Shown here: positions 3,564-50,883 of the stretch, piece after piece
Position numbering within the stretch: the stretch's first letter is position 1
Layout of the letters: each line of letters begins with the position of its first letter
IMG/VR virus record: IMGVR_UViG_3300032289_002472
Coordinates: 49,068-113,067 of that record
DNA length: 64,000 bases
DNA from: a virus
Strand: one strand, 5' to 3'
Notes under the pieces: model-generated
What the model saw: the letters and a program-made list of their open reading frames with translations, nothing else
Databases searched by the model: none
Told to the model about the DNA's origin: nothing
Made by a program: the position numbers and the translations under genes

Positions 3564-3574
3564 CTTTAAAAAAT

Positions 3575-3647
3575 GCCCGTATAGCTCAGTTGGTAGAGCA
3601 CCTCACTTGTAATGAGGATGTCGTTGGTTCGAATCCGACTGCGGGCT
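3575..3647 (+). tRNA. tRNA-Thr (anticodon UGU)
   Basis: Acceptor GCCCGTA pairs with TGCGGGC, D-arm AGCTCAGTTGGTAGAGC, anticodon arm CTCACTTGTAATGAG with UGU, T-arm GTTGGTTCGAATCCGAC. CCA is not encoded. It lies 11 bases after tRNA-Ser and is probably on the same transcript as the phosphoesterase. Confidence 0.94.
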
Positions 3648-3663
3648 CTTTTTTAAATAAAAA

Positions 3664-3737
3664 GTACGGCTGCTTCTCATACAACCTTGCGGGTGAGAAA
3701 GCTAACGCGAGCCGTTCACGGGTCGATGGTGACCATC
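3664..3737. ncRNA. Short structured non-coding stretch after tRNA-Thr
   Basis: The 168 bases between tRNA-Thr and the convergent gene ending at 3816 are non-coding. They hold nested pairs ACGGCT (3666-3671) with AGCCGT (3710-3715) around TTCTCA (3674-3679) with TGAGAA (3694-3699), then hairpin GATGG/CCATC (3725-3737). This may be a small RNA or the 3' end of the tRNA transcript. The strand is undetermined. Confidence 0.35.
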
Positions 3738-3815
3738 CCCCTTATTACAGGCATGACCTGCTTCTTTTCATCAGTGGGTTCTGACTAGCGGCTCATTACG
3801 CCACAGCAACTTTTT

Positions 3816-4676
3816 CTACTCAGCGGAAATCTTTGTAGAACACTTTCCTCCACAGCATTTCTTTCCCTTGCTCTCTTTGTCAATTTCCAATATAGCAGCA
3901 ACGTGATTTTTTTGGACGTCAATACCTCCGCGCACAAGAGCATCTGTTAATTCACAGACGGAAGGGCATCTACCAAGCTTTTCTTCAAGCTCCTCTGCTC
4001 CAAAGATAATGTTTTGAACACGTTGATGAAAGTTAAGGTTGATCATACCTTCTTCGGTTGGATCCTCCTCTTGGTTTTTCATTTCAACAACTGCTCTTAC
4101 CTGGTTCTCAGAAAATGAAGAGCCGTAGCTGATGCTTAAAAACTCTGCCATCGTACGTAAGTTAGGTTCAGTTCTAAATCCTAACGTCTGTTTTCTTGAG
4201 TTATATTCACTAATGATTCTTTCAAGCTTTGTGTAAACATTCATAGGAATGAAAGCTAATCCTTCATCAAACTCATCATTGGATTCATCATCAAAATCGC
4301 TTAAATCTTCGTTTGAATCTTCAGGAGTTTGATAGTCATCAAAATCTTCCTCGTCTTCGTCAATGAATTCACCATCACGAGTGTATCCATTAATTTCTAA
4401 GAACTCTGCCAAGACGTCGTTGATGACTTCATTAACACTTACATCTTTCTCACAAGAAACTTTGATGAGATGTTCAAGAATGTCCCTGGGCCATTCTTCT
4501 GTCTCAAGCTCCAGAGTAACGAACTTTTCGAGAAGAATAGATCCGTCATTTTGATGATAAACGCTAAATTTATCTCCCTGATTCAATCCTAGGACTCCTA
4601 ACTCCTCTTCCGTAAAGGAAATTAAAAGGTCTGTGGATTGTTGCAATTTCTTTGTAATAGTCTGTCGTTTGTTCAT
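3816..4676 (-). CDS. AbrB/SpoVT-like N-terminal domain protein with acidic linker
   Basis: A 286-aa protein from ATG 4676. Residues 5-50 look like an AbrB/SpoVT swapped-hairpin (LLISFTEEELGVLGL, NQGDKFSVY, DGSILLEKF), suggesting DNA binding. A highly acidic stretch follows (DEDEEDFDDYQTPED, LSDFDDESNDEFDEG), then a helical C-terminal region ending in Cys-rich KKCCGGKC, a possible metal site. ATG 4676 is preferred to 4721 because the domain starts there. It overlaps the upstream 104-aa frame by 107 bases, which is unusually long. Confidence 0.6.
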   Translation of the reverse strand: MNKRQTITKKLQQSTDLLISFTEEELGVLGLNQGDKFSVYHQNDGSILLEKFVTLELETEEWPRDILEHLIKVSCEKDVSVNEVINDVLAEFLEINGYTRDGEFIDEDEEDFDDYQTPEDSNEDLSDFDDESNDEFDEGLAFIPMNVYTKLERIISEYNSRKQTLGFRTEPNLRTMAEFLSISYGSSFSENQVRAVVEMKNQEEDPTEEGMINLNFHQRVQNIIFGAEELEEKLGRCPSVCELTDALVRGGIDVQKNHVAAILEIDKESKGKKCCGGKCSTKISAE

Positions 4677-9400: not shown

Positions 9401-10201
9401 TTAAAACATACGTGTAAAGGCGAGCGTCCCCATTGGTATTTGAGGTACTCCATTGCCATAATTTCTCGATCCGTAATAGATGTGTGGGCTGTGAATATAA
9501 AAATGCCCAGCCTTGTTATTTGAGTTTGTCTCTGCCATTTGCCTGATCTCTAAAGCTAGTGCTTTTAATATATTTTTTGTGTTGGGGGAATAAGTATTCT
9601 TATCCACCCTTTTCCACATGTGATCATCATCAACTTGTATATCCTTGAAGGTCGGTGTGTGCTCCCATTTACGAATTAAGTCCGCACAGAAATAAACAGA
9701 ATTTCTAGACTTTAATCCAAGGGTTAACATCAAAACTGAACGAGGACCACTATTTATATCTTTAGACAAAATAGCGTTTATATCATTCATGACAGAAGGA
9801 CAAACATAACCCAAATAATCAGCATAAATAATATCAAAATGATGATCACTAGGAATACCTGTCTGTGGGCTTCTGATTAAAGCTTCTGACAGGTGTCCAT
9901 GCTGATGGGTCATGTTGAATGTAGCTCTACCCCCATAATCGTTTGACAACTGTTCAGCCACAGAAGTAGCCATAGAATGAATACTAGGATTGTTTTCGCA
10001 TCCCCAAAAACAAAATCTGTTCTCAGGAAAACTTTCAACAATGCTTCTTTCATGTGCCCACTCTTGGGCTGGTAGTGTCAGAAAATTAACTGTCTGTCCC
10101 TTTTCAAGGGCTGAAGCTAGTAAGGGAGCGATAAATCTATTACTGTAATCTTGATCCAATCTTTTATTACGATTCTTTTCTGGGCATGATACAAATGACA
10201 T
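9401..10201 (-). CDS. Putative SAM-dependent methyltransferase-like protein, 266 aa
   Basis: A weak call. The segment ENRFCFWGCENNP near residue 62 resembles the end of strand 2 with its acidic residue, and FDIIYADYLGYV near 125 resembles motif IV of Rossmann methyltransferases. No glycine-rich motif I is clear, so the fold could be another Rossmann type. ATG 10201 (MSFVSCPEKNRNKRL) gives a 35-base overlap with the macro-domain gene; an ATG at 10270 would overlap far more. Confidence 0.45.
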   Translation of the reverse strand: MSFVSCPEKNRNKRLDQDYSNRFIAPLLASALEKGQTVNFLTLPAQEWAHERSIVESFPENRFCFWGCENNPSIHSMATSVAEQLSNDYGGRATFNMTHQHGHLSEALIRSPQTGIPSDHHFDIIYADYLGYVCPSVMNDINAILSKDINSGPRSVLMLTLGLKSRNSVYFCADLIRKWEHTPTFKDIQVDDDHMWKRVDKNTYSPNTKNILKALALEIRQMAETNSNNKAGHFYIHSPHIYYGSRNYGNGVPQIPMGTLAFTRMF

Positions 10202-10610
10202 GTTTCTTTGAAATAGACTTGATGCATTTTTCAATTTCTTTCCAGCTACACCCTTGAAGACTGCACCCAAGCTTGTATGGAAAATAAAGATTAATATTAG
10301 GAAATGCTTCGACGATCTTTGATAAAGATTGCTTAAATGCTAAATATTCAAACTTGTTTTGATTGTTATTGGGCATCAAACAATAAATATTAGCGACACT
10401 AAGCTCATCAGTTACACGAACAACAGAAGACTGACCCAACACATCCAATGGAGATCTCTTGAGTGTAGTTTCAATATGTTCCTGCAAAACCTTAGGGAAT
10501 TTTTTGGTAACCTGGAAAGAAAACCCGCCTGACATTTGATCACCGCAGCTCACGGGGTGAACAATCACCCCAGAGCTAACGGTAAGAACGTCTTTTACTA
10601 CTGTAGCCAT
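10167..10610 (-). CDS. Macro domain protein, 147 aa
   Basis: A single macro domain of about the family's minimal length, expected to bind ADP-ribose or hydrolyse ADP-ribose derivatives such as the 1''-phosphate made in tRNA repair. Visible are GVIVHPVSCGDQMSGGFSFQ (the ligand loop region, near residues 15-34) and LYFPYKLGCSLQGCSWKEIE near 107-126, the phosphate loop and following helix. ATG 10610 is chosen; GTG 10616 is an alternative. It follows the 123-aa gene with a near-overlapping junction. The presence of an RNA ligase in the window makes RNA-repair clean-up plausible, though the genes are 8 kb apart. Confidence 0.7.
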   Translation of the reverse strand: MATVVKDVLTVSSGVIVHPVSCGDQMSGGFSFQVTKKFPKVLQEHIETTLKRSPLDVLGQSSVVRVTDELSVANIYCLMPNNNQNKFEYLAFKQSLSKIVEAFPNINLYFPYKLGCSLQGCSWKEIEKCIKSISKKHVICIMPRKES

Positions 10611-10612
10611 GG

Positions 10613-10984
10613 TCACATAGCTCCAACAGTTTTGATTAGATCTTTCTGTTTGCCATAAGTGTAAACAGCATCCAGAGGAATAACTCCATTCTCAAGACCC
10701 TTTACCATGGCATTGAACCCTGTCGATTCGCGCAGTCTTTCATAAGCTAAAATCCAGATCTCTCTGGGCGTAAGCCTTTTTTGAAGCGCTATTGTTTTGA
10801 TCATTTTGTTAAGTCGTTTGCGGTCAGAGTTGGTCTTCTCAGACACTAGCTTCTTAGCAATCTTCTTTTGTTGTTTAGGCAAATTAGATTGATAAATTAA
10901 CTGCAGTGAATCAACAACCTCAGTCGAGGCATCAGAAAATTTTTTAATAGAATTATTTAAGTCTAGTAGTAGTTGTTCAGGCAT
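10613..10984 (-). CDS. Hypothetical helical protein, 123 aa
   Basis: Not recognised. Almost entirely helical, with a basic middle (KQQKKIAKKLVSEKTNSDRK) and LTPREIWILAYERLRE. It starts after the leader AAACAAAAACACACATT. It is the first gene of the short operon with the macro-domain gene. Confidence 0.6.
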   Translation of the reverse strand: MPEQLLLDLNNSIKKFSDASTEVVDSLQLIYQSNLPKQQKKIAKKLVSEKTNSDRKRLNKMIKTIALQKRLTPREIWILAYERLRESTGFNAMVKGLENGVIPLDAVYTYGKQKDLIKTVGAM

Positions 10985-11045
10985 AATGTGTGTTTTTGTT
11001 TATTGTGTAGAAATTAGATCTTGGCGATAAGTCACCAATAAAATT

Positions 11046-11498
11046 TTAAAAACACCCAACAATTTGGTTAGATATTTTAGGTATCTTTGTTGGATGAAGC
11101 TTTAAAGAAATCGATATTGGAGATTTCCTAGAAATAGCTGTAGATATACTTGGACTAATTTTTAGTCCGGTTGGGCAAGTGACAATAAGGTCTTGGTTGC
11201 TATTCCAAAAACCTTGAGATAAAAAATTAATAATTAACTTAGCCTTAGACTGATTAAAAAGCTCTGCCTCAGGATAATCAAAGGGATCTCCATCAAAGCA
11301 GTTAATGCTCAAAATTTCTCTAGGACTAATCTTAAAAGCTTTCTGCAAAAGATCTGCATTGTAAAAATGTGAAGACCTCCAGCCTATTTCGCTTGAAGAA
11401 ACAAAAACCACCCATGGGGGTTTCCCATGGGTGGCATTAGAATCTTGAATCGCACGATTTAGACCTTGATAACAGATAGCCTGAATCGTTCTATTCAT
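11046..11498 (-). CDS. Hypothetical protein, 150 aa
   Basis: Not recognised. It has alternating strand and helix segments (PPWVVFVSSSEIGW, REILSINCFDGDPFDY) and a Ser/Ile/Lys-rich end. It sits one base downstream of the 337-aa gene and is probably translated with it. Confidence 0.6.
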   Translation of the reverse strand: MNRTIQAICYQGLNRAIQDSNATHGKPPWVVFVSSSEIGWRSSHFYNADLLQKAFKISPREILSINCFDGDPFDYPEAELFNQSKAKLIINFLSQGFWNSNQDLIVTCPTGLKISPSISTAISRKSPISISLKLHPTKIPKISNQIVGCF

Positions 11499-11499
11499 C

Positions 11500-12513
11500 T
11501 TAGTAGTTAGACAATATATGATTTAGCAGAGAGTTAGATTCCGACTCATCCATCCTATGCATTGGAATAACATAGAACTGTGTCGTGGTGTCCACCTCGG
11601 GATTGTCTTGGCAATTTGGGAAGATAAAGAAATCTCCCTTCATCTCTACCTGACAATAGTTTTCGTGATTTAGAGCGTCCTTAGATTCTGCAAGCAGAAC
11701 CATGTCGTTTGTCTCACAAAGCCAATGATCATGTGAAACCCCCAACAACTCTCCAGATTCATATAGCGTGAAGTCCTCGCCAAGTCTGATTGGCTCTAAA
11801 TTTAATTTAAGAGTAACACCTTCATTGGGTCCGACCTTCAATGATCCAGCTGACTGATTCAAAATATGGCGAGTTGCCAAAGTTTTGAAATCATCAAGCT
11901 TTTCTTGAATTACTTCCTGAACAGTTATTGAAAGATCAGAAGTCTCAATGAAATCTAAGTACTTTTCTTTAATCTGTTCTTTCTGTTCAGATGTCAGCGT
12001 AAAACCCTTGTGCCTCAATTCAACAATAACATTTTCCCAAGGATTAAACATGCCGTAAACAATTGAATCAGGGTAGCCATCTTCAATTTCTTTGATCTTA
12101 TTGTCAAATGCTTGAGATTCTGAAATATCTACTAGATCGGACCACTTGATTGGTTTAATCTCAAGATTTTCATCCAAATTCTCATGGACTGATTTTGACG
12201 AAATGAGATGTGTCCTAAAGTTGTCAGCAATCTGTGAAAGATCTGTGGTAAAAACCATCAACGACTTTTCAAAAGCTTCAGTAAGTTTAAAGTCACAAAG
12301 ATTCTGTAACGAAATAATAATTCCTGATTCAGCTAATTTAGTGCTGATAACTGCTACAGTAGAAAGAGAAACTTCAGGAAATAATTGCTCAAATTTTTTG
12401 CTGTCAATTTCTTGCTCAAGAAATTCACTTTTAATTTCCACTTCATAAGGAAGTATGTCTCTGGTTGTGTTCCAAAGCTGATTAAAAAGATAGTGTTTAA
12501 TATTTGTTCTCAT
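11500..12513 (-). CDS. Hypothetical protein, 337 aa
   Basis: Not recognised. ATG 12513 (MRTNIKHYLFNQLW) is preferred over an upstream ATG at 12540 that lies in the terminator hairpin. The composition is acidic and mixed alpha/beta, with a probable beta-rich C-terminal half (GVTLKLNLEPIRLGEDFTLY). It opens a new transcription unit just past the terminator of the Ubl operon. Confidence 0.65.
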   Translation of the reverse strand: MRTNIKHYLFNQLWNTTRDILPYEVEIKSEFLEQEIDSKKFEQLFPEVSLSTVAVISTKLAESGIIISLQNLCDFKLTEAFEKSLMVFTTDLSQIADNFRTHLISSKSVHENLDENLEIKPIKWSDLVDISESQAFDNKIKEIEDGYPDSIVYGMFNPWENVIVELRHKGFTLTSEQKEQIKEKYLDFIETSDLSITVQEVIQEKLDDFKTLATRHILNQSAGSLKVGPNEGVTLKLNLEPIRLGEDFTLYESGELLGVSHDHWLCETNDMVLLAESKDALNHENYCQVEMKGDFFIFPNCQDNPEVDTTTQFYVIPMHRMDESESNSLLNHILSNY

Positions 12514-12527
12514 TTTGTAAAAGAAAA

Positions 12528-12554
12528 GGGAGGGGGACAAATGCCCCCCTCCCC
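12528..12554 (-). terminator. G/C hairpin ending the Ubl operon
   Basis: GGGAGGGGG (12528-12536) pairs with CCCCCTCCC (12545-12553) around a short loop, and the minus-strand product is followed by a T-rich run (CTTTTCTTTT). It lies just after the 67-aa gene at 12578. Confidence 0.8.
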
Positions 12555-12577
12555 ATTAGTTAATCTTAATATTAAGA

Positions 12578-12781
12578 TTATTCGGCCATTTCAGCTCCGC
12601 TCGGCTTTTTGCCTGGAAGCTTCATTTGAGCCCTTTTTAAAGGCTCAAAAATTCCGACCTTAACTTTTTCGATAATCTCATCAGAGATATCGTTCGCTTC
12701 GGCGGAATTAATTAATTCTTCGACGCCAGTCAAGGCAAGCTCGACTGAACCTCTAAGACTAGATGTTGATTTTTTTCTCAT
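12578..12781 (-). CDS. Small protein at the end of the Ubl operon, 67 aa
   Basis: Not recognised. It starts MRKKSTSSLRGSVELALTGV, a basic N-terminus, then an acidic helix (INSAEANDISDEIIEKV) and a Lys/Pro-rich end (KLPGKKPSGAEMAE). It lies six bases after the JAMM gene and before a terminator, so it is the last gene of the operon. It may be a substrate, regulator or unrelated passenger. Confidence 0.65.
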   Translation of the reverse strand: MRKKSTSSLRGSVELALTGVEELINSAEANDISDEIIEKVKVGIFEPLKRAQMKLPGKKPSGAEMAE

Positions 12782-12787
12782 ATTTTT

Positions 12788-13981
12788 CTAATAGTAGCCG
12801 TACATTCCGTCATAGCTTCGAGCCATTAAATACTTGCGCTCGTTAATCCACGACTCAATTGTATCGGCAAGTTTCTCTTTTGAGATGCCCCATGTAGCTA
12901 AAATATTAGCGTCCACAGCGGTAAGCACCTCAAGTTTCGTTTCATCTAACTGATGGTCGAAAGTAGTCAAAATGTCACATAGCTCAGCTTGTGTCATCCT
13001 AAAGTTTCGACATATTTTATCTACTGACGGCTCCAATAGGTCTTTAGTTTGTTCCTCCCCAAGACCTAAAGAACCCTGATGGGGGCTTTGGGAATATCCC
13101 ACCTTTTTCTTTTTTTTGTTTTTTTTTGAGGCTTTTTTGGACTCCCACCACTCCCAGTATGGATTTGTGGATCCAGAAGAATAATTGGAAGCATATTCAG
13201 AAGAACCTCCGTAGTTATTAACTACAGTAAAACTCTTCTTTGGTGGCTCCACTCGATTCTTCATCCATTCTTCAATCAAGCCCTCTTCAGCCAACTCTTC
13301 AGTGTTTTGTTTCACCAAAAAATTAGTTGTATATTCTTGAATAGCTTTAGGAGCCCTAGAACCAATGTAGTCACTGGGAATTTCGATGAAGTCACTCATC
13401 TTAACAGGACAGAAAAAGACTTGAGCTTTTTCTACTGTCTCCTCCCCCTCCTCATTGACGACAATTTTCCCAGGAATAACTACCGTAAAACGAACGTGAA
13501 CATCTACTTCTTTCTCGTCAATTTTACCAATAGTTATGTGAATACCTGGAGAATTTTGCTCATCGTTTTTGTCGGTTCCAGATTGGAATGCGCCCATATT
13601 ACAGTGTGAGTGGCATGTCCCCCACTGATAATATTTACCGCCCTCCAATACCTCATTCATTTGAGCCTGAAAGGTTTCATGGTCTGGCAACTCTTTAGTT
13701 GTCATTCCAGTATCCTTTTCTTGAGGGAAGGCCCAAGCCTTCCACTCTTTGGTAACATCACTATAAAAAAGCCTAACTTGTGCCTCAGCTTTTTCATCTT
13801 TATTTACCTTGCGAAAAAAGGAAGCAATTGTCCTCCATAGAGACAGCTTCATCTTTCCACATCTCAACTCCAATGCTGGATCTTCTTTTATTTCTTCATA
13901 TTCCACAGGAAAAAACCCCGACAACTTATCGTTAATTTCTTTTTTGATTAGTGGCTTACCACTATGAATGAATAATTTCAT
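12788..13981 (-). CDS. JAB/MPN (JAMM) metallopeptidase, 397 aa
   Basis: A predicted deubiquitinase-like zinc peptidase that would remove or process the Ubl. The JAMM signature is complete: H124-S-H126, seven residues, S134-x-x-D137 (CHSHCNMGAFQSGTDKND), embedded in beta strands (EAQVRLFYSDVTKEW before, PGIHITIGKIDEKEVDVHVR after). The C-terminal 150 residues contain a Lys-rich linker and a helical domain not seen in minimal JAMM proteins. It overlaps the 536-aa gene by 20 bases. JAMM, E1 and E2-like proteins co-occur in prokaryotic Ubl and PRTRC-type systems, which supports the call. Confidence 0.82.
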   Translation of the reverse strand: MKLFIHSGKPLIKKEINDKLSGFFPVEYEEIKEDPALELRCGKMKLSLWRTIASFFRKVNKDEKAEAQVRLFYSDVTKEWKAWAFPQEKDTGMTTKELPDHETFQAQMNEVLEGGKYYQWGTCHSHCNMGAFQSGTDKNDEQNSPGIHITIGKIDEKEVDVHVRFTVVIPGKIVVNEEGEETVEKAQVFFCPVKMSDFIEIPSDYIGSRAPKAIQEYTTNFLVKQNTEELAEEGLIEEWMKNRVEPPKKSFTVVNNYGGSSEYASNYSSGSTNPYWEWWESKKASKKNKKKKKVGYSQSPHQGSLGLGEEQTKDLLEPSVDKICRNFRMTQAELCDILTTFDHQLDETKLEVLTAVDANILATWGISKEKLADTIESWINERKYLMARSYDGMYGYY

Positions 13982-15572
13982 TTACTTTGATACTAGAGAG
14001 GTTGACTAGGATTTTTATTTCACCACTAGAACGAGTTTTTTGATGTGTCATCTCAGATGTCTTTTTGTAGCGATCCAATTGATACTCATGGATGTTTTCG
14101 TTAAAAGAATTGGCAACATACTGTTTCACAGCAGTCTCCCCCTTCCTAATCACAAACTCAGGAACCATGACTGATTGAGTCTCTTTAGGCTCAATTGTGT
14201 ATCTCTGAATAACAGGTCTCTCAACGGTTGCCGAAAAACTCACCGAAACCTTTTTCTGTAAACTATCTTTAACATCGTTGGCGTTTATCCCAAAATGATA
14301 ATGACCATACATGTTAGTAACTGCTGCTGATGAACTAACCTGAAACCCAGCAGCCATCAAAGCCTTTTTGAAATAGCTACTCCACTTGTTGTTTAGCATA
14401 GTGTCGACACCCCAAAATAAAGGAGTGCCATCCTTAGCTGCTGCAACCGCAAACTCTGATAGCCAGTCGGAATGAACCTTGTCCAAAAGAACTGCTACAA
14501 GAGGAGAAGACTTTTTAGCCAAGGCAAGAGCGAACTCACCAAAGGATGACATGTTTTTGTACTCTGTCGATTTTAGTAGGTTCATCTTGTATGGATCTAA
14601 AAACTCAGATTTAAAGTTTTTAGCTATCATACTCAACAGTTGAGATCGTGGTTGAACAGCTACACGATTATTGGTTATTTCAGAAAACGACCTAAAAGCT
14701 ATCCTCAGTTCATCTTGATCCAGAAGCTTTGAGATTCTTTTGTGTACCTCAATTTCTTTGCCATTAATTTCCAATAGACACGTTTTTTCCAGAAGAACCC
14801 CCTGGGAATCTGTGTCAATTTCTGTAAATTTTGTGCAAAAAGAATTTTTAGCCTTGCGACAGAACGTAGTGGAAACTTTAACAGTTTTCCATTTACCGTC
14901 ATGCCACAGCCAAGTGACAGACCCATTCGGCAACAAAACCAAACCAACTTGTTCTGCGGCGGAAAAGGCCTTTACTGGAATAAAAATATTCTGGACACTA
15001 AATCGATCTATAGTCCATCTAGAGTCAAAAACCTTAAACATCTTGGTTGCATTACCCAAAACCTCGATAGCCTCAAAGAATGGAGTTCGAATAGATCCAG
15101 TGCTTTGTAGTGCTTCATTGTTTTCCGGGCCTTGAACCGTACCCACACTAAAATAACTACCATTTGGCAAGATATTTCCTGTTCCAGACAGTGATTTAAT
15201 ATTTTTAATCACACGAAACGGAACTAGTGGAACAGTCGTAAGAAGCTCAATTATTTTTTGATCATAATGCTTAAACCAATGCCCAGCTGGTTGAGTTAAA
15301 TAAAACAACTTTTCGCTAACTTTTGGGTTTATGGGGTAGCCACAAAAAGAAGGGTTTAAACGTTTCCTTTGTGCAGTGTAATTAACGTATGGACGATCAC
15401 ACAGAGTTAAACACTCAACACTATCTTCGACAAAGATGTGTTTTGAGTTTCTGAGATTTAAAGCCTCTTGTATGAAGCTTTTGCGTTCCTCCTGAACATC
15501 ATGGGGTGTTCTGTATGCCAAATTCTCAAAGTATTGACCCTGAGAAAATGGATAGACTGGTTTATTACTCAT
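13962..15572 (-). CDS. Unrecognised Ubl-operon protein, 536 aa
   Basis: No family recognised. It lies between E1 and JAMM genes with overlaps on both sides (8 and 20 bases), so it is very likely part of the same machinery. The first 130 residues are rich in aromatic and Cys residues (DSVECLTLCDRPYVNY). The middle has several beta-rich segments (QVGLVLLPNGSVTWLWHDGK), and a helical region around 300-420 includes FALALAKKSSPLVAVLLDKV. No P-loop, RING or catalytic motif is evident. It could be a target-recruiting or scaffold subunit. Confidence 0.7.
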   Translation of the reverse strand: MSNKPVYPFSQGQYFENLAYRTPHDVQEERKSFIQEALNLRNSKHIFVEDSVECLTLCDRPYVNYTAQRKRLNPSFCGYPINPKVSEKLFYLTQPAGHWFKHYDQKIIELLTTVPLVPFRVIKNIKSLSGTGNILPNGSYFSVGTVQGPENNEALQSTGSIRTPFFEAIEVLGNATKMFKVFDSRWTIDRFSVQNIFIPVKAFSAAEQVGLVLLPNGSVTWLWHDGKWKTVKVSTTFCRKAKNSFCTKFTEIDTDSQGVLLEKTCLLEINGKEIEVHKRISKLLDQDELRIAFRSFSEITNNRVAVQPRSQLLSMIAKNFKSEFLDPYKMNLLKSTEYKNMSSFGEFALALAKKSSPLVAVLLDKVHSDWLSEFAVAAAKDGTPLFWGVDTMLNNKWSSYFKKALMAAGFQVSSSAAVTNMYGHYHFGINANDVKDSLQKKVSVSFSATVERPVIQRYTIEPKETQSVMVPEFVIRKGETAVKQYVANSFNENIHEYQLDRYKKTSEMTHQKTRSSGEIKILVNLSSIKVNEIIHS

Positions 15573-16275
15573 TTTTTAAGTCTCCTATTGTTATTGTTCC
15601 AAGCTTTGAAAAAGTATTGTTTAATTCAAGAGGCCAGAACTGTAAGGACTGAGTCTCATCTAGAGTCTTAGATTCAATCATCCAAAAATTCCAAAGATGC
15701 AAAGCATGAGAAGCTGCAAACTGATTTGCCAGTGCAGTTTGAGGAACTTCACTCAAACGCTTCTCCGTGTTACACCCATCGGCCCTAATTGGAGAGCCAC
15801 TATCAGTTGTAAGAATTTCAGGATAACGGACCCTAGGATCCAGCGATGTATTTGCCCAAGCTGAGTCATAATAAAATGCTTGAGCACCTATCGTACTGTT
15901 AGCAGCAAAAATAACTTTTGCCTTGTGACGATCTGCAACGGCAAGTAAATCGCGTCGTGCAGGATGATTGTCCACAAACCCCATAATTAAAGACTTGTTC
16001 TCCGGAGAAAACGAATCGTTAATATATTCATTAAGTACATCAATAAAAATACTAGGATGTTGTTGACGATACTGTGATGCCAATGCTTCGGCCTTGTATT
16101 GACCAACAGATTCTTGAGCGAATAGTTGTCGATCAAGATTCTTGGTCTCGAACATGTCGCCATCAACAAGCGTGATTTTACTTTTTTTGAACTGCTTAAG
16201 GTGATTAATGGTTTTAAAGAAGGATGGCAGAAAATAGGTGCAGACTCCGCCGCACCCAACAATGTAATGATTCAT
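15565..16275 (-). CDS. E1-like ThiF-family adenylyltransferase, 236 aa
   Basis: Predicted to adenylate the Ubl C-terminus and pass it on as a thioester. The N-terminal Rossmann motif is GCGGVC at residues 7-12. Next come TLVDGDMFETKNLDRQLF at 35-52 (D38, D40, N46, R49, Q50: the ATP/Mg set), D102 in MGFVDNHPARRDLL, and a candidate catalytic C168 in RADGCNTEKRLSEVPQT. The late PQTALANQFAASHALHLW pattern resembles the compact ThiF proteins of PRTRC systems. It overlaps the 536-aa gene by 8 bases. Confidence 0.85.
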   Translation of the reverse strand: MNHYIVGCGGVCTYFLPSFFKTINHLKQFKKSKITLVDGDMFETKNLDRQLFAQESVGQYKAEALASQYRQQHPSIFIDVLNEYINDSFSPENKSLIMGFVDNHPARRDLLAVADRHKAKVIFAANSTIGAQAFYYDSAWANTSLDPRVRYPEILTTDSGSPIRADGCNTEKRLSEVPQTALANQFAASHALHLWNFWMIESKTLDETQSLQFWPLELNNTFSKLGTITIGDLKNE

Positions 16276-16378
16276 GAATTAATGGTTTGAAATGTGTTTA
16301 AAAAGAAGAAGGGTTAGTTGAGATGAAAAACAAACAAAAACTCTCAACAAAACTACATAGTTCTGTCCCCTCCTAAAG

Positions 16379-16831
16379 TTACCAGTTATTCTCTTGATCG
16401 TCCTCGTCGTCGTCCTCTTCGTTGTCGTCTTCGTCGTCTTCAGGAACTGCATGAGATCGACTTGATGCTGATTCCAATATTTGTTCTTGGGGCTCGAACC
16501 TCTGCCCAACAGAAGCTGGCAGTGTCACGGCGCTTTCAGAACAAAAAATTGGAACCCCAAACGACATAGAGTCTTCCGCTTGAGGATCTATAAAAGATAG
16601 ATATCGTGAAACAAAGCTCTTTAGAGAAAATTCTGCAGGAACTTCTAAAGACTTTTCCTCTATACCTTTAGTTAAGTCTGTGCATCGAAAAAATGACCAC
16701 GTAGACCTGTAAAAAACATAATCATTGTATAATGATAAATGACGCTCTTTTGAGGTGCTGCCAAAAACTGACTCCATTGAGACAGGCAAGGTAGGAGCCT
16801 TCAAAAGATGCTGATACAGCTCTTTACTCAT
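16379..16831 (-). CDS. Acidic-tailed protein of the Ubl operon, 150 aa
   Basis: Not recognised. Residues 1-125 are mixed; the last 23 are almost all Asp/Glu (EDDEDDNEEDDDEDDQ). It overlaps the E2-like gene by four bases, so translation is coupled. The acidic tail may bind a basic partner or mimic DNA. Downstream, 103 bases separate it from the E1 gene. Confidence 0.65.
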   Translation of the reverse strand: MSKELYQHLLKAPTLPVSMESVFGSTSKERHLSLYNDYVFYRSTWSFFRCTDLTKGIEEKSLEVPAEFSLKSFVSRYLSFIDPQAEDSMSFGVPIFCSESAVTLPASVGQRFEPQEQILESASSRSHAVPEDDEDDNEEDDDEDDQENNW

Positions 16832-17664
16832 ATTGTTGGCAATCCATCGATGAAGTAGTTACCCACCTTTTTAACAAATGTTTTTTCGTTAATATGAACC
16901 AAAGACCGAACTTGATTCTTGTTGCAGTCCCACCCAAAAATATTGGATGCAATGGGTGCCCTGGAAACCTCAGACTCAAGAAGGTCTCTATTCATTTTGG
17001 ATTCAAAGAACCAAGTAACCGCTCTTTGAATGTTTTTATCAATTTGATTGTCTGAAATACTGGCGTCAAAGTTATGCCCCATACAAATACTTCCATCATT
17101 GTAGATGTTAGGCAGACAAGGCAAATAGTTACCTAGAAGTTTATTTTCCCTAGCGTTAATCACTTGAAAAAGCAGATGACACTTCATACTGAATCCCCTT
17201 GAGTTAATCCCAGCTCGTTTAGCTCCTGAAGAGCCTCTGTGATTAATCAAAACGGCAAACAACATTTTCATCACAATATCAGACGCACTCAGTGTGTTTT
17301 GTGTGTCAACACTCCAATAAAGTTTGTCGCTAATAGAGTCTGGATTCGACCCAGACAAGTCTGTGATTATCCTGGTTTGACTACCGTGCTCAACTAGGGA
17401 GAACTTCGTGTCAAAAATTAATCCAGGAATATGAGACCAATAAATACAGTCTCCATTATTTGAAAGAGAAAAGTGAAAGGGATGCATGGCATAAGATATT
17501 TCGCCGCGCTGGCATCCAACAGCTACATTGTATTGAGCATAATTATCAATACTGGCAAATTTTTGATTGGCAATTTTTTGAATGACGTCGTCAACATTGT
17601 AAATAGCACTAGGGTCTAGTCGATAAACAATGTTATCTTCGCCAAGGACGATAAGAGGATTCAT
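16828..17664 (-). CDS. E2-like conjugating enzyme (PRTRC-B-like), 278 aa
   Basis: Predicted to carry the Ubl on a cysteine. Residues 184-196, LPNIYNDGSICMG, strongly resemble the E2 active-site strip (HPN-x-Y-x-x-G-x-IC); C194 is the candidate catalytic residue. Preceding strands FSMKCHLLFQVINARENKLL fit the E2 sheet before the flap. The N-terminal 120 residues (VYRLDPSAIYN, ISYAMHPFHFSLS) resemble the beta-rich region of PRTRC system protein B. It is followed by the acidic protein with a four-base overlap. Confidence 0.75.
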   Translation of the reverse strand: MNPLIVLGEDNIVYRLDPSAIYNVDDVIQKIANQKFASIDNYAQYNVAVGCQRGEISYAMHPFHFSLSNNGDCIYWSHIPGLIFDTKFSLVEHGSQTRIITDLSGSNPDSISDKLYWSVDTQNTLSASDIVMKMLFAVLINHRGSSGAKRAGINSRGFSMKCHLLFQVINARENKLLGNYLPCLPNIYNDGSICMGHNFDASISDNQIDKNIQRAVTWFFESKMNRDLLESEVSRAPIASNIFGWDCNKNQVRSLVHINEKTFVKKVGNYFIDGLPTI

Positions 17665-17693
17665 GTGATGTTATTGAATTGTTGAAAAAAAGA

Positions 17694-17725
17694 GCCCCCA
17701 AGCTCGGCGCATCGAGCTTGGGGGC
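17694..17725 (-). terminator. Intrinsic terminator after the Ubl gene
   Basis: GCCCCCAAGCTCG (17694-17706) pairs perfectly with CGAGCTTGGGGGC (17713-17725), and on the minus strand it is followed by TCTTTTTTTC. It lies between the Ubl gene and the E2-like gene, so the Ubl should be made in excess over the enzymes by partial termination. Confidence 0.88.
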
Positions 17726-17765
17726 AAAAAATTAATTATGAGAAATAAACTTCTCTAGATACAAA

Positions 17766-17993
17766 TTAGGCGAGAGCCTTTTCGTGGGAACGATTCTGGA
17801 CAGAAACCAGATCGCCCTCCGAAAGAACCACGTCATCGGAAGCAATGCTTCCATTGACAATGTACTGGACATTGTCAGAGCTGTAGCCGAGGGCTGCAGC
17901 GATGTTGCGGTTGTTACGAAGGCAGCCGAGGTTGCTTCCATTGGGAAGCTCCAAGGTCATGCTATTACCAGCGAAGCCAATATTAACTTGCAT
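17766..17993 (-). CDS. Ubiquitin-like beta-grasp protein, 75 aa
   Basis: Likely the modifier of the operon. The layout is beta-grasp: MQVNIGFAGNSMTLELPNGS (strands 1-2), a helix around residues 28-36 (NRNIAAALG), NVQYIVNGSIASDD (strand 3) and LSEGDLVSVQNRS (GD turn and last strand), close to ThiS/MoaD and the small PRTRC-C Ubl proteins. It ends EKALA, not GG, so either the enzymes accept another C-terminus or processing is absent. ATG 17993 is chosen because strand 1 begins there; a frame to 18023 exists. It is the first gene of the operon. Confidence 0.75.
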   Translation of the reverse strand: MQVNIGFAGNSMTLELPNGSNLGCLRNNRNIAAALGYSSDNVQYIVNGSIASDDVVLSEGDLVSVQNRSHEKALA

Positions 17994-18082
17994 GATGTTA
18001 TATAGTTTTGCTTTGAACGCCAAAGCGAACGGAAGTTTTGTACTGGATCTTCAACCAAGCAGCCCCACTTTGAAACTGCTGG

Positions 18083-18118
18083 GCAAGTATTCGCTATTTG
18101 CGAATAGCGAATACTTGC
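18083..18118. promoter_or_regulatory. Perfect 16-bp hairpin ahead of the Ubl gene
   Basis: GCAAGTATTCGCTATT (18083-18098) and AATAGCGAATACTTGC (18103-18118) pair without mismatch around the loop TGCG. It sits 90 bases upstream of the Ubl ATG and 16 bases after the stop of the 83-aa gene. No T-run follows on the minus strand, so an operator or RNA-stability element is as likely as a terminator. Confidence 0.6.
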
Positions 18119-18133
18119 AATAGCAATCTCAAA

Positions 18134-18385
18134 TTAGTGCGTGAACTCCAACTTAATGCCATACTTTTTGATGGCTTGCCTTAATGTCATTTTATTAACC
18201 CCTGGTTCTATTTCGGACTTATGAGTGAGGAAAAATTTGATGTGTTTACGTTCCTTTGCAGGAATAGAAGAAAGAAAAGTGGTGTAATTGGCGGAACCAG
18301 CTATGACGGCTAAAGGCTGAATAGTAACTTTAACGTTTTGCTTCGATAGTATTTTATAAACAAACGCTTTTTCAGGCTTAGCCAT
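18134..18385 (-). CDS. Hypothetical protein, 83 aa
   Basis: Not recognised. Basic (about 15 Lys), reading MAKPEKAFVYKILSKQNVKV and ending in a possible small helix-turn-helix-like segment (MTLRQAIKKYGIKLEF). It overlaps the 155-aa gene by 8 bases. Confidence 0.6.
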   Translation of the reverse strand: MAKPEKAFVYKILSKQNVKVTIQPLAVIAGSANYTTFLSSIPAKERKHIKFFLTHKSEIEPGVNKMTLRQAIKKYGIKLEFTH

Positions 18386-18845
18386 TTTCGTTGTTTGTCG
18401 TAATTGGCAAGTTCAAAGACTTCAAAACTAAAGCGCTTTCCTTGGTGTATATTTTCCTAGGAAACATATCGCAATGTTTTTTGGGTTTTAGTGTATCAAA
18501 GGTTTCGCCAAGCCTTCTGATATGAGAAGATCGACGCTTTGATTGATTATTAAAATCTCTGGCCTTTTGAATCAAGTGAGGGATTAAAGTATTGTGATCA
18601 GTTTCTGTGTCAATTTGAACAGTGAAAGCTGAAAGCTCATCTGTATTGATGCTTGATAAAGTTTCTTCTGAACCCATCAAAATAGTAACGTTGCGAGTCT
18701 CAGGACGAACCTCAGGTTCTACTTCTTGTTCGTCTGTGTCTGTCAAAAACTCTCTAACGGTTTCAATGATACGTCTTCTTGTTGCTTCGTCGTTTAATTG
18801 TTGTGTTAAGATTTGTTCTAAATCTTCTAGTTTTATTTTATTCAT
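18378..18845 (-). CDS. Hypothetical protein, 155 aa
   Basis: Not recognised. An N-terminal charged helix (MNKIKLEDLEQILTQQLN), a Glu/Thr-rich middle and a basic C-terminal third (NNQSKRRSSHIRRLGE). It overlaps neighbours by a few bases on both sides, so it lies inside an operon. Confidence 0.6.
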   Translation of the reverse strand: MNKIKLEDLEQILTQQLNDEATRRRIIETVREFLTDTDEQEVEPEVRPETRNVTILMGSEETLSSINTDELSAFTVQIDTETDHNTLIPHLIQKARDFNNQSKRRSSHIRRLGETFDTLKPKKHCDMFPRKIYTKESALVLKSLNLPITTNNENG

Positions 18846-19042
18846 AATAGTTTATCTTCCCATTCTTGGCATTTATCTCTCAATTGTTTTATATTTTCTT
18901 GAGATGGAATTAGCTCTAGCTCAGTGCAAGCCTCAAATAATTGTGCCTGACCAAAATCTCGACATAAATTTGCAGCCTCTACTGATCGAAATGTTTTTCC
19001 ATTTATCCTGAAACCGTCCCACTCAAGTGCAGGGCTATACAT
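18842..19042 (-). CDS. Hypothetical small protein, 66 aa
   Basis: Not recognised. Starts MYSPALEWDGFRINGKTFRS and continues as acidic helices (LFEACTELELIPSQENIK). It overlaps the next gene by four bases, and its ATG shares one base with the stop of the 264-aa gene upstream. Confidence 0.6.
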   Translation of the reverse strand: MYSPALEWDGFRINGKTFRSVEAANLCRDFGQAQLFEACTELELIPSQENIKQLRDKCQEWEDKLL

Positions 19043-19836
19043 TAGTATGGAGTATCTTCGTATTCTTCAACGTAAAAAACACGTTTATCTTTTCTGCAGT
19101 CTACGATGATTCTCCAAAGTCCACCACGATATCCAATCTCCCAGTCAACATGGGGGGCTTCTTCACCAACAAACTTTTTAATAAATTTGTCGGCGACTTT
19201 TTTGCAATCGCTTCCATGCACAGAAAACTTTATCTGTGGAGAAGAGTCTTCAGATCTTCTTCCCACCCAAGTTCTTGGGGAGTTTTCTATCCTAGCTTTA
19301 CCAAGCCTAATAACTCCCAGCCTAGTCAATAATTCTATTCCCAGCGTAGTCATGTCATCCTCCCACTGTCTTTCTATCACATCACTATCTACATAATGTG
19401 AATAAAACTCAGAAAAGGATTTTAACTGATGTTCAGAAAGTCCATTTAAAATCGTCTGTAAAGATTCTCCTTCTGCCGTCATTACCCAGGTTGAATATTC
19501 TGGCTCAAGGAGTGGGTGAATTAAAAATTGTTCAGCCCAAATTCTGAATGTCTTGGGTTTAACTAAGTTACCTGAAGAAATGTTATTTTTGACCACATTA
19601 AGCTTTGACCAAACTAAAATAGTCTCAAAGCTTTTGTATGTATCTAAAGGAATTTCTTCTTCAAAAGAAATAGGAGACCCATGTATTTTAGCACTTTTAT
19701 CTAACTCAAACTCTGAGTTGTAAAACACTTGCTTTTCTTCTTCTTGAACAAGTTCATTTTCTGATTCTTCAAAAACCTCTTCTTGATTTTCTTTTTTATC
19801 TAATTCTAGATGTAACTGATCTTTTAAGTTTTTCAT
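19042..19836 (-). CDS. Hypothetical protein, 264 aa
   Basis: Not recognised. The first 60 residues are very acidic (KKENQEEVFEESENELVQEE), then a Trp-containing mixed domain (ETILVWSKLNVVKNN) and a basic C-terminal region (DCKKVADKFIKKFVGEEAP) with beta strands near the end. It is the first gene of the four-gene operon 19836-18134; its leader contains the repeat hairpin at 19886-19990. Confidence 0.65.
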   Translation of the reverse strand: MKNLKDQLHLELDKKENQEEVFEESENELVQEEEKQVFYNSEFELDKSAKIHGSPISFEEEIPLDTYKSFETILVWSKLNVVKNNISSGNLVKPKTFRIWAEQFLIHPLLEPEYSTWVMTAEGESLQTILNGLSEHQLKSFSEFYSHYVDSDVIERQWEDDMTTLGIELLTRLGVIRLGKARIENSPRTWVGRRSEDSSPQIKFSVHGSDCKKVADKFIKKFVGEEAPHVDWEIGYRGGLWRIIVDCRKDKRVFYVEEYEDTPY

Positions 19837-20056: not shown

Positions 20057-20677
20057 TCATCCAGAAATACCTACAGGGACAAAAGATTTGATTAACTCAG
20101 TAATTTTATTACAAACCGCAGTTGCCTTCATGCTCGGACTAAGACCCAATGGAAAATCCTTGGAACGATAAAATACGTGTACGTCAACCCCCTTATTGAT
20201 AGGATCAAAGGCCATCTTAAGTATTGTATCGTCCTGCACTAAACGAACAATCGGAATATGTATTGAAAGCTTTGGAGTATCTTCTCTGCGCAAAATACGG
20301 TTAATCCCATTCTGTAGTTCTTGTATATGCAGAATTAAATTTTCCCAATCTTTTTGGCAAAAAGCTTTCCAGCATTTTGCATCCCAGTCCGCAAACCATT
20401 CTTCTTGTTTAGAAACATGTTTGCTGTGAGTAAAGAGCTTTCCAACTATGTGGGTTTCGTTTGCAGTTACATAAGAAATAGATTTTGCTTCTTTTGCTTT
20501 TGGCAAAGATTGATTTTTAGGTGGTCTACCCCGTTTTTTAATGAGAGTTGCTGAAGCCTGTTGAATGACAGCTTTGTTTTTGGGAGGTCTTCCCCTTTTT
20601 CTTTTGACGATCACAGGCTCTTGAATTGCTACAACCTTATTCTTGGGGGGTCTGCCCCTCTTGCGTTTGATTGTCAT
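20057..20677 (-). CDS. AT-hook DNA-binding protein, 206 aa
   Basis: Three AT-hook motifs (KRGRPPKN) lie near residues 6-13, 26-33 and 47-54 in near-identical repeats, each joined by a short hydrophobic linker. This is a minor-groove binder for AT-rich DNA, fitting the AT-rich genome. Residues 70-200 form a mixed globular domain (EEWFADWDAKCWKAFCQKDW) that is not recognised. It overlaps the upstream 245-aa gene by 41 bases. A nucleoid-like or transcription-modulating role is inferred. Confidence 0.8.
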   Translation of the reverse strand: MTIKRKRGRPPKNKVVAIQEPVIVKRKRGRPPKNKAVIQQASATLIKKRGRPPKNQSLPKAKEAKSISYVTANETHIVGKLFTHSKHVSKQEEWFADWDAKCWKAFCQKDWENLILHIQELQNGINRILRREDTPKLSIHIPIVRLVQDDTILKMAFDPINKGVDVHVFYRSKDFPLGLSPSMKATAVCNKITELIKSFVPVGISG

Positions 20678-49164: not shown

Positions 49165-50883
49165 GTGAGCAACATTCAAGTCCCAGTATCAGATACCGAG
49201 TTACAAGATATATATGCTCGTATGGCACATAAGATGGATCTAGTCCATTTAGTGCCCTCTTCGATTACTTTTCAGGGTAAGCCTTTAAACATTCTTCATC
49301 GTAGGCCGATGTTTAAGCGAATGTTTGAGAAGGACAGACCCGTACTCAGGGATGTTTATATTTGTGGACGTCAGTTAGGAAAAACTGTGTCCATAAGCAG
49401 TTCTATATTAATGCATTGTTGGTGGCGTCAATTTTTTAGAATGCTGTATGTAGCTCCAATGTCGATCTACACAACTCGTTTGCATAGTATGTTTATGCAG
49501 CCGATGATTCAGGGAAAAATTTTGCCATGGTCAATAATGGATAATAAGACCTGTATTAATAACGTTAATGAAAAAAGCTTTTTGACTGGAAGTAGGTATG
49601 TAGGAATTTCTTGTTATAATAATGCTTCTAATGCTTTGGGTTTGAGTATTGATTGGGCGATATTTGATGAGGTTCAGGATTTGAATTATGATTTTATTCC
49701 ACAGATTCGTGAGGTTGTTGGAACTTCGGATTATAGATATGAAAGTTATTTTGGTACTGCTCGTGGAATAGACAATACGCTTACTACGCTTTACGAAGGT
49801 TCTACACAAAACGTCTGGAAGATGATCTGTGATAAGTGCAAACACGCTAATTATCCAACTCTTCATGGAAACGTATTAGACATGATTCAAAAAGAGGGAA
49901 TTTGTTGCGTAAAGTGCAAGGCCTTGCTTGATGTAGATAGGGGGGAGTGGGAACGAAGTTTTGAGTTCGACGTTACCGGAAGAAACTCTGAAGGGTATCA
50001 CGTTCCTCAGATCATTGTAAAAGACCGTATCACGCCTCACGCAAGATACATTGATACAATTTACAATAAGCTGCATGGATCAGCTGCGTACTCGGAAGCA
50101 AGATTCTTGCAGGAAGTCTTAGGAATTCCTACCTCACAAGGTGGAGTTCCTATAACCCAGCAGGATATAAAAGCTGTTAGCACCTTAGACGTTCCTCAAG
50201 ATGGAGGGTGGAATGCTCAACAATACCACAGAGTAGCTGGTGGGGTTGACTGGGGTGGAGCAGAAATTGTCAGCTTTACCGTAGGAACTTTGGTGGGCTA
50301 TAGAGATGGAATGTTCGACTGCTTTGCTGCCTTAAGACCTACAGGGCTACCAGACGAACAAAGACACTACGTTATTGGAGACTTCTTAAAAAGAGCTAGC
50401 TCTAGCAGACTTGAGATTGTGGGGGCGGATGCTGGATTCGTTGGTTCTGTGCAAAACCCTAATTTGGCGCTTCACATGCATGTTCCGGTTGGGTCGATTG
50501 CTTATGGCACCACTAAAAAGTTTTTTATTCCGCAGACAAACAATTGTTTTACCGTAGACAGAACAACCTTGATTTATATTGTTCTTACCTTGATTAAAAG
50601 TGGAAGAATAAGATTCCCTAAAGGTGCATGGTTTGAGCAATATAGCAGAGACTTGTTAGCGATTTACACCGAAGACAATGTAAACACTCATGGGATTACA
50701 GTAAGAAGATATAGTCGATACAAAGATCGTCCAGACGACTTTTTACATGCCCTAGGATATGCAATTTTTATGGCATCTCTTGGAATTACAGATTTACCTA
50801 GCATGGCAGGAATGCCGCATGATATGTCCGTAAATGCGCCCTATATAAATGATATTGGCGAAGAAAGAGGATCTTTTTATTAA
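49165..50883 (+). CDS. terL: Terminase large subunit, 572 aa
   Basis: The DNA-packaging motor ATPase and nuclease. Walker A region CGRQLGKTVS at 67-76, Walker B AIFDEVQDL at 165-173 with catalytic E169, coupling segment YFGTAR. A Cys4 insertion (CDKC near 226 and CVKC near 251) lies between ATPase and nuclease, as in GpA-like terminases. Nuclease acidic residues are in GVDWGGAEI, VGADAGFV and DDFLHALGYA. The start is GTG 49165 (MSNIQVPVSD). It is one of few plus-strand genes; no small subunit or portal gene is seen in the window. Confidence 0.93.
   Translation: MSNIQVPVSDTELQDIYARMAHKMDLVHLVPSSITFQGKPLNILHRRPMFKRMFEKDRPVLRDVYICGRQLGKTVSISSSILMHCWWRQFFRMLYVAPMSIYTTRLHSMFMQPMIQGKILPWSIMDNKTCINNVNEKSFLTGSRYVGISCYNNASNALGLSIDWAIFDEVQDLNYDFIPQIREVVGTSDYRYESYFGTARGIDNTLTTLYEGSTQNVWKMICDKCKHANYPTLHGNVLDMIQKEGICCVKCKALLDVDRGEWERSFEFDVTGRNSEGYHVPQIIVKDRITPHARYIDTIYNKLHGSAAYSEARFLQEVLGIPTSQGGVPITQQDIKAVSTLDVPQDGGWNAQQYHRVAGGVDWGGAEIVSFTVGTLVGYRDGMFDCFAALRPTGLPDEQRHYVIGDFLKRASSSRLEIVGADAGFVGSVQNPNLALHMHVPVGSIAYGTTKKFFIPQTNNCFTVDRTTLIYIVLTLIKSGRIRFPKGAWFEQYSRDLLAIYTEDNVNTHGITVRRYSRYKDRPDDFLHALGYAIFMASLGITDLPSMAGMPHDMSVNAPYINDIGEERGSFY

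Follow-up and report, generated by a model that had tools for sequence, protein, structure and literature searches.

Do phages run protein-conjugation systems of their own? Prokaryotic conjugation of ubiquitin-like proteins (Ubls) has recently been studied mainly as a host defense against phages, and a cassette of six genes within a 64,000-nucleotide (nt) stretch of viral DNA (the window; bases 49068-113067 of the 113-kb IMG/VR record IMGVR_UViG_3300032289_002472) raises the question from the side of the phage. The source record is that of a phage, as large terminase, DNA polymerase, and helicase genes are present. Judging from its sequence, the cassette probably specifies a phage-encoded, reversible Ubl-conjugation cascade that is actively conjugating; what is unusual here is a modifier that ends in alanine instead of the usual glycine. 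Complete sets of writer and eraser enzymes in several phage lineages suggest that phages run such systems themselves, and an alanine-ended Ubl allows the need for a terminal glycine to be tested directly.

Composition of the Cassette

The cassette spans 12788-17993 on the minus strand, with the gene order Ubl, E2, X150, E1, X536, JAMM. Its members, in the direction of transcription, are as follows.

17766..17993, minus strand: Ubl of 75 amino acids (aa), ubiquitin beta-grasp, C-terminus ...SHEKALA, no Gly
16828..17664, minus strand: E2-like protein, putative PRTRC_B / Prok-E2_D relative, C194 in LPNIYNDGSICMG
16379..16831, minus strand: X150, acidic C-terminal tail in the window copy; conserved in phages L001 and L007 only
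15565..16275, minus strand: E1, ThiF-type adenylating enzyme, GCGGVC, D38/D40, R49, K61, D102, C168
13962..15572, minus strand: X536, lineage-specific, 24-26% identity to L001/L007, nothing similar elsewhere
12788..13981, minus strand: JAMM peptidase, PRTRC_A relative with C-terminal extension, E66, H124, H126, S134, D137

A check of the open reading frames (ORFs) found all of those named in the original prediction, a reading of the bare sequence, together with their residues, in place. The assignments of the Ubl, the E1, and the JAMM peptidase are close to certain. The E1 is a single ThiF domain of 236 aa that scores 53 bits, above the Pfam ThiF cut-off, bearing out the earlier call of a ThiF-type enzyme with GCGGVC, D38/D40, and C168. 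It retains DGD, N46, R49, K61, D102, and C168; C168, DxD, and K61 align with plasmid and phage E1s, and C168 is invariant in that alignment. Against PRTRC_ThiF, from the PRTRC modules of plasmids, it scores 39.8 bits (cut-off, 144.75), with an hhalign E of 8.6e-17. In a tree of E1s, the window protein and two relatives form a separate, deep, unplaced branch, and a scan of genome contigs with the E1 returned only an unrelated Cetobacterium ThiF. The JAMM peptidase matches PRTRC_A with E 4.7e-7 (29.6 bits, below the cut-off of 101.8). It had been called complete on the strength of H124, H126, S134, and D137, to which the glutamate E66 can be added; this glutamate and the HSH-S-D residues align with distant homologues. 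The N-terminal domain of the published PRTRC JAB proteins has a conserved Arg and Trp; in the window protein, a conserved W49-R50 precedes the JAB core. A PDB sequence search with the JAMM profile gave no match, and PHROGs offered no useful model for the cassette proteins.

The protein between the Ubl and X150 is very probably an E2, to judge from profile comparisons. It matches Prok-E2_D with E 2.1e-4, below the cut-off, and PRTRC_B with 11.6 bits (cut-off, 131); hhalign against PRTRC_B and phage E2s gives E 2.2e-5, with cysteine aligned to cysteine. N186 and C194 are invariant across 18 aligned E2s, 15 of which match Prok-E2_D.

When the three related phages (the window, L001, and L007) were left out of the profiles, the window proteins were still recovered among 9,913 ORFs, with E 5e-35 for the E1, 6.6e-31 for the JAMM peptidase, and 7.6e-9 for the E2-like protein; because every family served as a seed in collecting the underlying sets, the test is slightly circular. 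In a matrix of profiles only expected pairs score, the E1, E2, and JAMM protein matching their PRTRC or phage counterparts only. The cassette is thus not a chance assembly, because the E1 exceeds the Pfam ThiF cut-off, the leave-out profiles match, and order and residues recur in L001 and L007.

Conservation in Close Relatives

Whether single proteins or alignments were used, pattern scans of IMG/VR led to the same three records, two of which have identical DNA over the stretch compared. The six genes recur in unchanged order in all three, with every catalytic residue named above. Identity between the window and L001/L007 is 54-55% for the E1, 44-45% for the JAMM peptidase, 42-46% for the Ubl, and 32-35% for the E2-like protein. 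Between L001 and L007, the ratio of nonsynonymous to synonymous substitution rates (dN/dS) is 0.04-0.13 over the six cassette genes and lowest in the E1, with dS near saturation.

The Ubl and Its Alanine Terminus

The 75-aa protein was proposed at the outset to have a beta-grasp fold, and a confident AlphaFold (AF2) model agrees (predicted local distance difference test [pLDDT] 85.6). A Foldseek search of the PDB with this model finds ubiquitins at E 1.6e-5 and template modeling scores of 0.71-0.73; ubiquitins (from Caldiarchaeum and eukaryotes) make up the first 50 matches together with SUMO and ubiquitin-like domains. The absence of a C-terminal GG had also been noted. In this lineage the protein ends in HEKALA or HEKAA, so that the terminal glycine is absent: K-A stands in place of the K-G that ends the Ubls of other phage modules, with one or two residues added. 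K/R-G closes the domain in 52 of 54 distinct PRTRC_C-type Ubl domains, and KG lies within two residues of the end in 13 of 14 further divergent Ubls, as judged by eye.

Two ways of supplying a glycine were considered and set aside. Frameshifting or readthrough of the Ubl gene yields no convincing in-frame extension in the three phages. The neighboring X155, which ends in glycine in all three, was considered as the true modifier; it has no PRTRC_C or other match.

Relationship to Known Systems

The original prediction had pointed to kinship with PRTRC-type operons. These plasmid operons (ParB-E-C-F-B-A-ThiF) are type 6d of Iyer et al. 2006, where they are described as predicted systems (PMC1779556). 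Profile similarity indicates that the cassette enzymes are distant homologues of PRTRC ThiF (E1), B (E2-like), and A (JAMM), of the same stock; the active sites align, and a small beta-grasp Ubl lies upstream in both. Unlike PRTRC, the cassette is borne by a phage, follows the order Ubl-E2-X150-E1-X536-JAMM, includes two lineage-specific proteins, and has a Ubl that belongs to a different sequence family and is without the terminal glycine of PRTRC_C; nor does its E2-like protein keep the downstream histidine that is absolutely conserved in 6d operons. The phage records (G000-G003 for ParB and E), which may be incomplete, yielded no PRTRC_parB, PRTRC_E, or PRTRC_C, whereas a control plasmid yielded all three. 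PRTRC_C and F-like profiles match nothing in the cassette, and X536, X150, and the flanking X155, X83, and X346 have no profile similarity to PRTRC E or F. The cassette should therefore not be filed as PRTRC, given the failure to find PRTRC_C, ParB, and E, the E2 histidine that is not kept, and the absent Ubl glycine.

BilABCD, a bacterial ISG15-like defense, likewise has a separate Ubl, E2, JAMM protein, and E1 in one locus. The Bil E1 comprises inactive and active adenylation domains plus a Cys domain (PMC11354881), unlike the single 236-aa domain here; in comparisons covering this description and PADLOC models, kinship with Bil beyond the similar toolkit noted at the outset found no support. 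Among PADLOC models, E1-E2 models are weakly matched by the E1; the E2, JAMM protein, and Ubl match no meaningful model. Tail assembly proteins I (Ubl) and K (JAB) of lambda-type phages also pair a phage Ubl with a JAB peptidase, but they come with no E1 or E2, and the JAB is fused to NlpC/P60 (PMC1779556).

Related Modules in Other Phages

Related Ubl/E1/E2/JAMM modules occur in dozens of other large phages, among them Salmonella phage Arash (L011), Vibrio phage D69 (L014), Bacillus phage KLEB27-3 (L012), Acinetobacter phage ME3 (L013), and crAss-like cr111_1 (L015), the E2 and Ubl calls being firm for only some of these five. Two scans of IMG/VR gave 98 loci. E1, E2, and JAMM genes are all present in 81 of 101 loci scored, mostly with a KG-ended Ubl, and the components therefore form one functional set; the co-occurrence in homologues that the original prediction had put forward as a check is thus found. 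A large terminase match was obtained in 36 of 49 tested records (either of two models, union made by hand), and some of the remaining records may be plasmids. A literature search, made largely without subscription papers and without bioRxiv preprints, turned up no paper on phage-borne E1/E2/JAMM/Ubl modules.

These modules (Arash, D69, KLEB27-3, and IMG/VR contigs) have the same enzymes as the cassette, with the E2 motif N...C.G...FN.DL and the JAMM motif HSH...S..D. In the cassette, as is expected of a module of this type, the E1, E2, and JAMM genes share one strand and fit into roughly 5 kb. The other modules differ from it in mostly running Ubl-(other)-E2-JAMM-E1, with an upstream Ubl that ends in KG and is often tandem. 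The KLEB27-3 protein gp199 (L036:31-738, minus strand) is made up of a 57-aa Ubl unit repeated four times almost without change, every copy closing with GVKG, and a short tail; there are three Ubl domains in D69, five in L043, and four in L129. The JAMM gene of ME3 (L013:1718-4828) is interrupted, as if by an intron, just at its ...DIH active-site motif; roughly 2 kb containing small ORFs separates the two parts.

In Arash-type phages (L041, L074, L078, and others; OQ632216 at its ends), the Ubl-E2-JAMM-E1 module adjoins the large terminase gene. Mass spectrometry of Arash virions placed Gp246-Gp249, from the region of E1/JAMM/E2, among the proteins (PMC10585845); this counts for little, because the GenBank numbering corresponds only inexactly and the list of detected proteins runs to 116.

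Proposed Mechanism and Alternatives

From the homology, catalytic residues, co-occurrence, selection, and terminator that the DNA displays, we infer each biochemical step of a conjugation cascade. The E1 would adenylate the 75-aa Ubl at its C-terminus and load it onto C168, from which the Ubl would move first to C194 in the E2-like protein and finally onto a target protein; the JAMM peptidase would trim the Ubl, strip it from targets, or both. The bond would run through alanine, possibly once the JAMM enzyme has cut the last one or two residues, because the Ubl ends in alanine (HEKA-LA or HEKA-A) where relatives end in K-Gly. X150 and X536 might serve as adaptors or as subunits that recognize the target. 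Since Arash-type modules adjoin the terminase gene, a first guess at the target would be a phage protein made during infection. More speculatively, conjugates joined through alanine might resist glycine-specific isopeptidases, or the tag might deliver phage-chosen proteins, or unconjugated Ubl, to a host protease; the latter idea draws on the resemblance of the ...ALA and ...KAA ends to ClpXP C-degrons.

What speaks most for conjugation is the E1, which is intact and, in sequence comparisons, under tighter constraint than any other cassette gene. Several observations weigh on the other side, among them the Ubl without a terminal glycine; the strongest is the precedent of locus L087. This locus (725-1114 and 3566-4636), the other exception to the glycine ending, encodes tandem Ubls ending in SKA, with E2 and JAMM intact; it has no ThiF match, and the protein in its E1 slot lacks recognizable ThiF features, so loss of the glycine can accompany loss of conjugation. 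The third glycine of the E1 GxGGxG loop is a cysteine. No histidine after C194 is invariant across the three phages (H197 is Q in L007). The original description of an E2-like strip around C194 holds as to the strip and its profile similarity to Prok-E2_D/PRTRC_B, but an E2 fold was not predicted: AF2, from a three-sequence alignment, gave pLDDT 42 and no PDB match, leaving the fold unconfirmed, and a PDB sequence search with the E2 profile also found nothing. Since fold prediction failed, the E2 identity rests on profile similarity.

The main rival to active conjugation, to which we give a minor though real share of likelihood, is that the Ubl is no longer conjugated and acts as a free or non-covalent scaffold or inhibitor, bound by the E1, E2, and JAMM protein without transfer. 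The KA(L)A end and, in part, L087 speak for it; the retention of all catalytic residues in the three enzymes and the constraint on the E1 speak against it, as does the fact that ubiquitin with its last glycine changed to alanine can still be activated and conjugated. It is less probable, and in our view unlikely, that the phage proteins counter a host Ubl defense (Bil or type II CBASS, for example), either by reversing it or by jamming it through mimicry; this role had been raised at the outset beside modification of a host or virion protein, and no particular role of either kind gained support. Conjugation of Ubls is indeed a weapon of hosts against phages, in CBASS according to PMC10097602 and in Bil as reviewed in PMC11354881, and the E1 has its weak PADLOC match; yet a full writer and eraser with their own modifier exceed what an antagonist needs, the other three proteins lack such matches, and the E1 is closest to PRTRC and phage E1s.

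Two further explanations seem very improbable. In sulfur-carrier chemistry of the ThiS/MoaD type, the E1 would make a Ubl thiocarboxylate and the JAMM protein would process it; a weak ThiS-like Pfam similarity and the ThiF family of the E1 fit this, whereas an E2-like protein with an invariant cysteine, a Ubl without GG, and a cassette in which no sulfur-metabolism gene was seen do not. Equally hard to credit is an ordinary plasmid PRTRC module serving maintenance on a phage-plasmid: the E1, E2, and JAMM protein are relatives of PRTRC ThiF, B, and A, but the order differs, all scores fall below NCBIfam cut-offs, and the ParB, E, and C genes recovered from the control plasmid were not found in the phage records. 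Conjugation through an alanine end remains our preferred reading, and cultured relatives (KLEB27-3 with its tetra-Ubl, and Arash) make the question testable now.

Expression and Genomic Setting

The cassette had been described as one operon with short overlaps and three unrecognized members. It is indeed a minus-strand set, but a terminator follows the Ubl gene and a gap of 103 nt separates the 150-aa gene (X150) from the E1 gene. X150, which had no match in family searches, and X536 are conserved, whereas the third such member, a 67-aa ORF, is missing from the relatives, where the JAMM gene abuts X346 with no such ORF between (L001 and L007).

17694..17725, minus strand: intrinsic terminator between the Ubl and E2 genes, 13-bp stem, 10 GC, T run
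12578..12781, minus strand: 67-aa ORF, doubtful member, absent from relatives
12527..12554, minus strand: intrinsic terminator downstream of the cassette, 12-bp stem, T-rich tail

The Ubl-gene terminator has counterparts at L001 7918-7949 and L007 6657-6690, and in these two phages hairpins also precede the Ubl and E1 genes. Because a strong terminator-like hairpin lies 3' of the Ubl gene in all three phages, the Ubl and the enzymes are probably made in unequal amounts; the gene's own terminator would give an excess of Ubl.

Conservation extends beyond the cassette on both flanks, over about 10167-19836, in a longer shared block with X264, X155, and X83 upstream and X346, PTP-loop-like, and macro-like proteins downstream.

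18378..18845, minus strand: X155, conserved upstream neighbor, exactly 155 aa with a C-terminal Gly in all three phages
18134..18385, minus strand: X83, conserved upstream neighbor
11500..12513, minus strand: X346, conserved downstream neighbor, start set from relatives
49165-50883: large terminase

Among cultured phages, the best match listed for the terminase is Salmonella phage Arash (26.5% identity). Other phage genes encode a DNA polymerase, a DnaB-like helicase, a UvsX-like recombinase, and a tail fiber. The conserved macro-domain-like protein adjoining the cassette (10167-10616) weakly matches macroH2A, ADP-ribose phosphatases, and DarG. Another conserved protein (11046-11498) has a PTP-loop-like CPTGLKISPS motif without the arginine; a structural search lent it no support. 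A protein with three KRGRPPKN AT-hook-like repeats is encoded at 20057-20677 and is present in L001 too.

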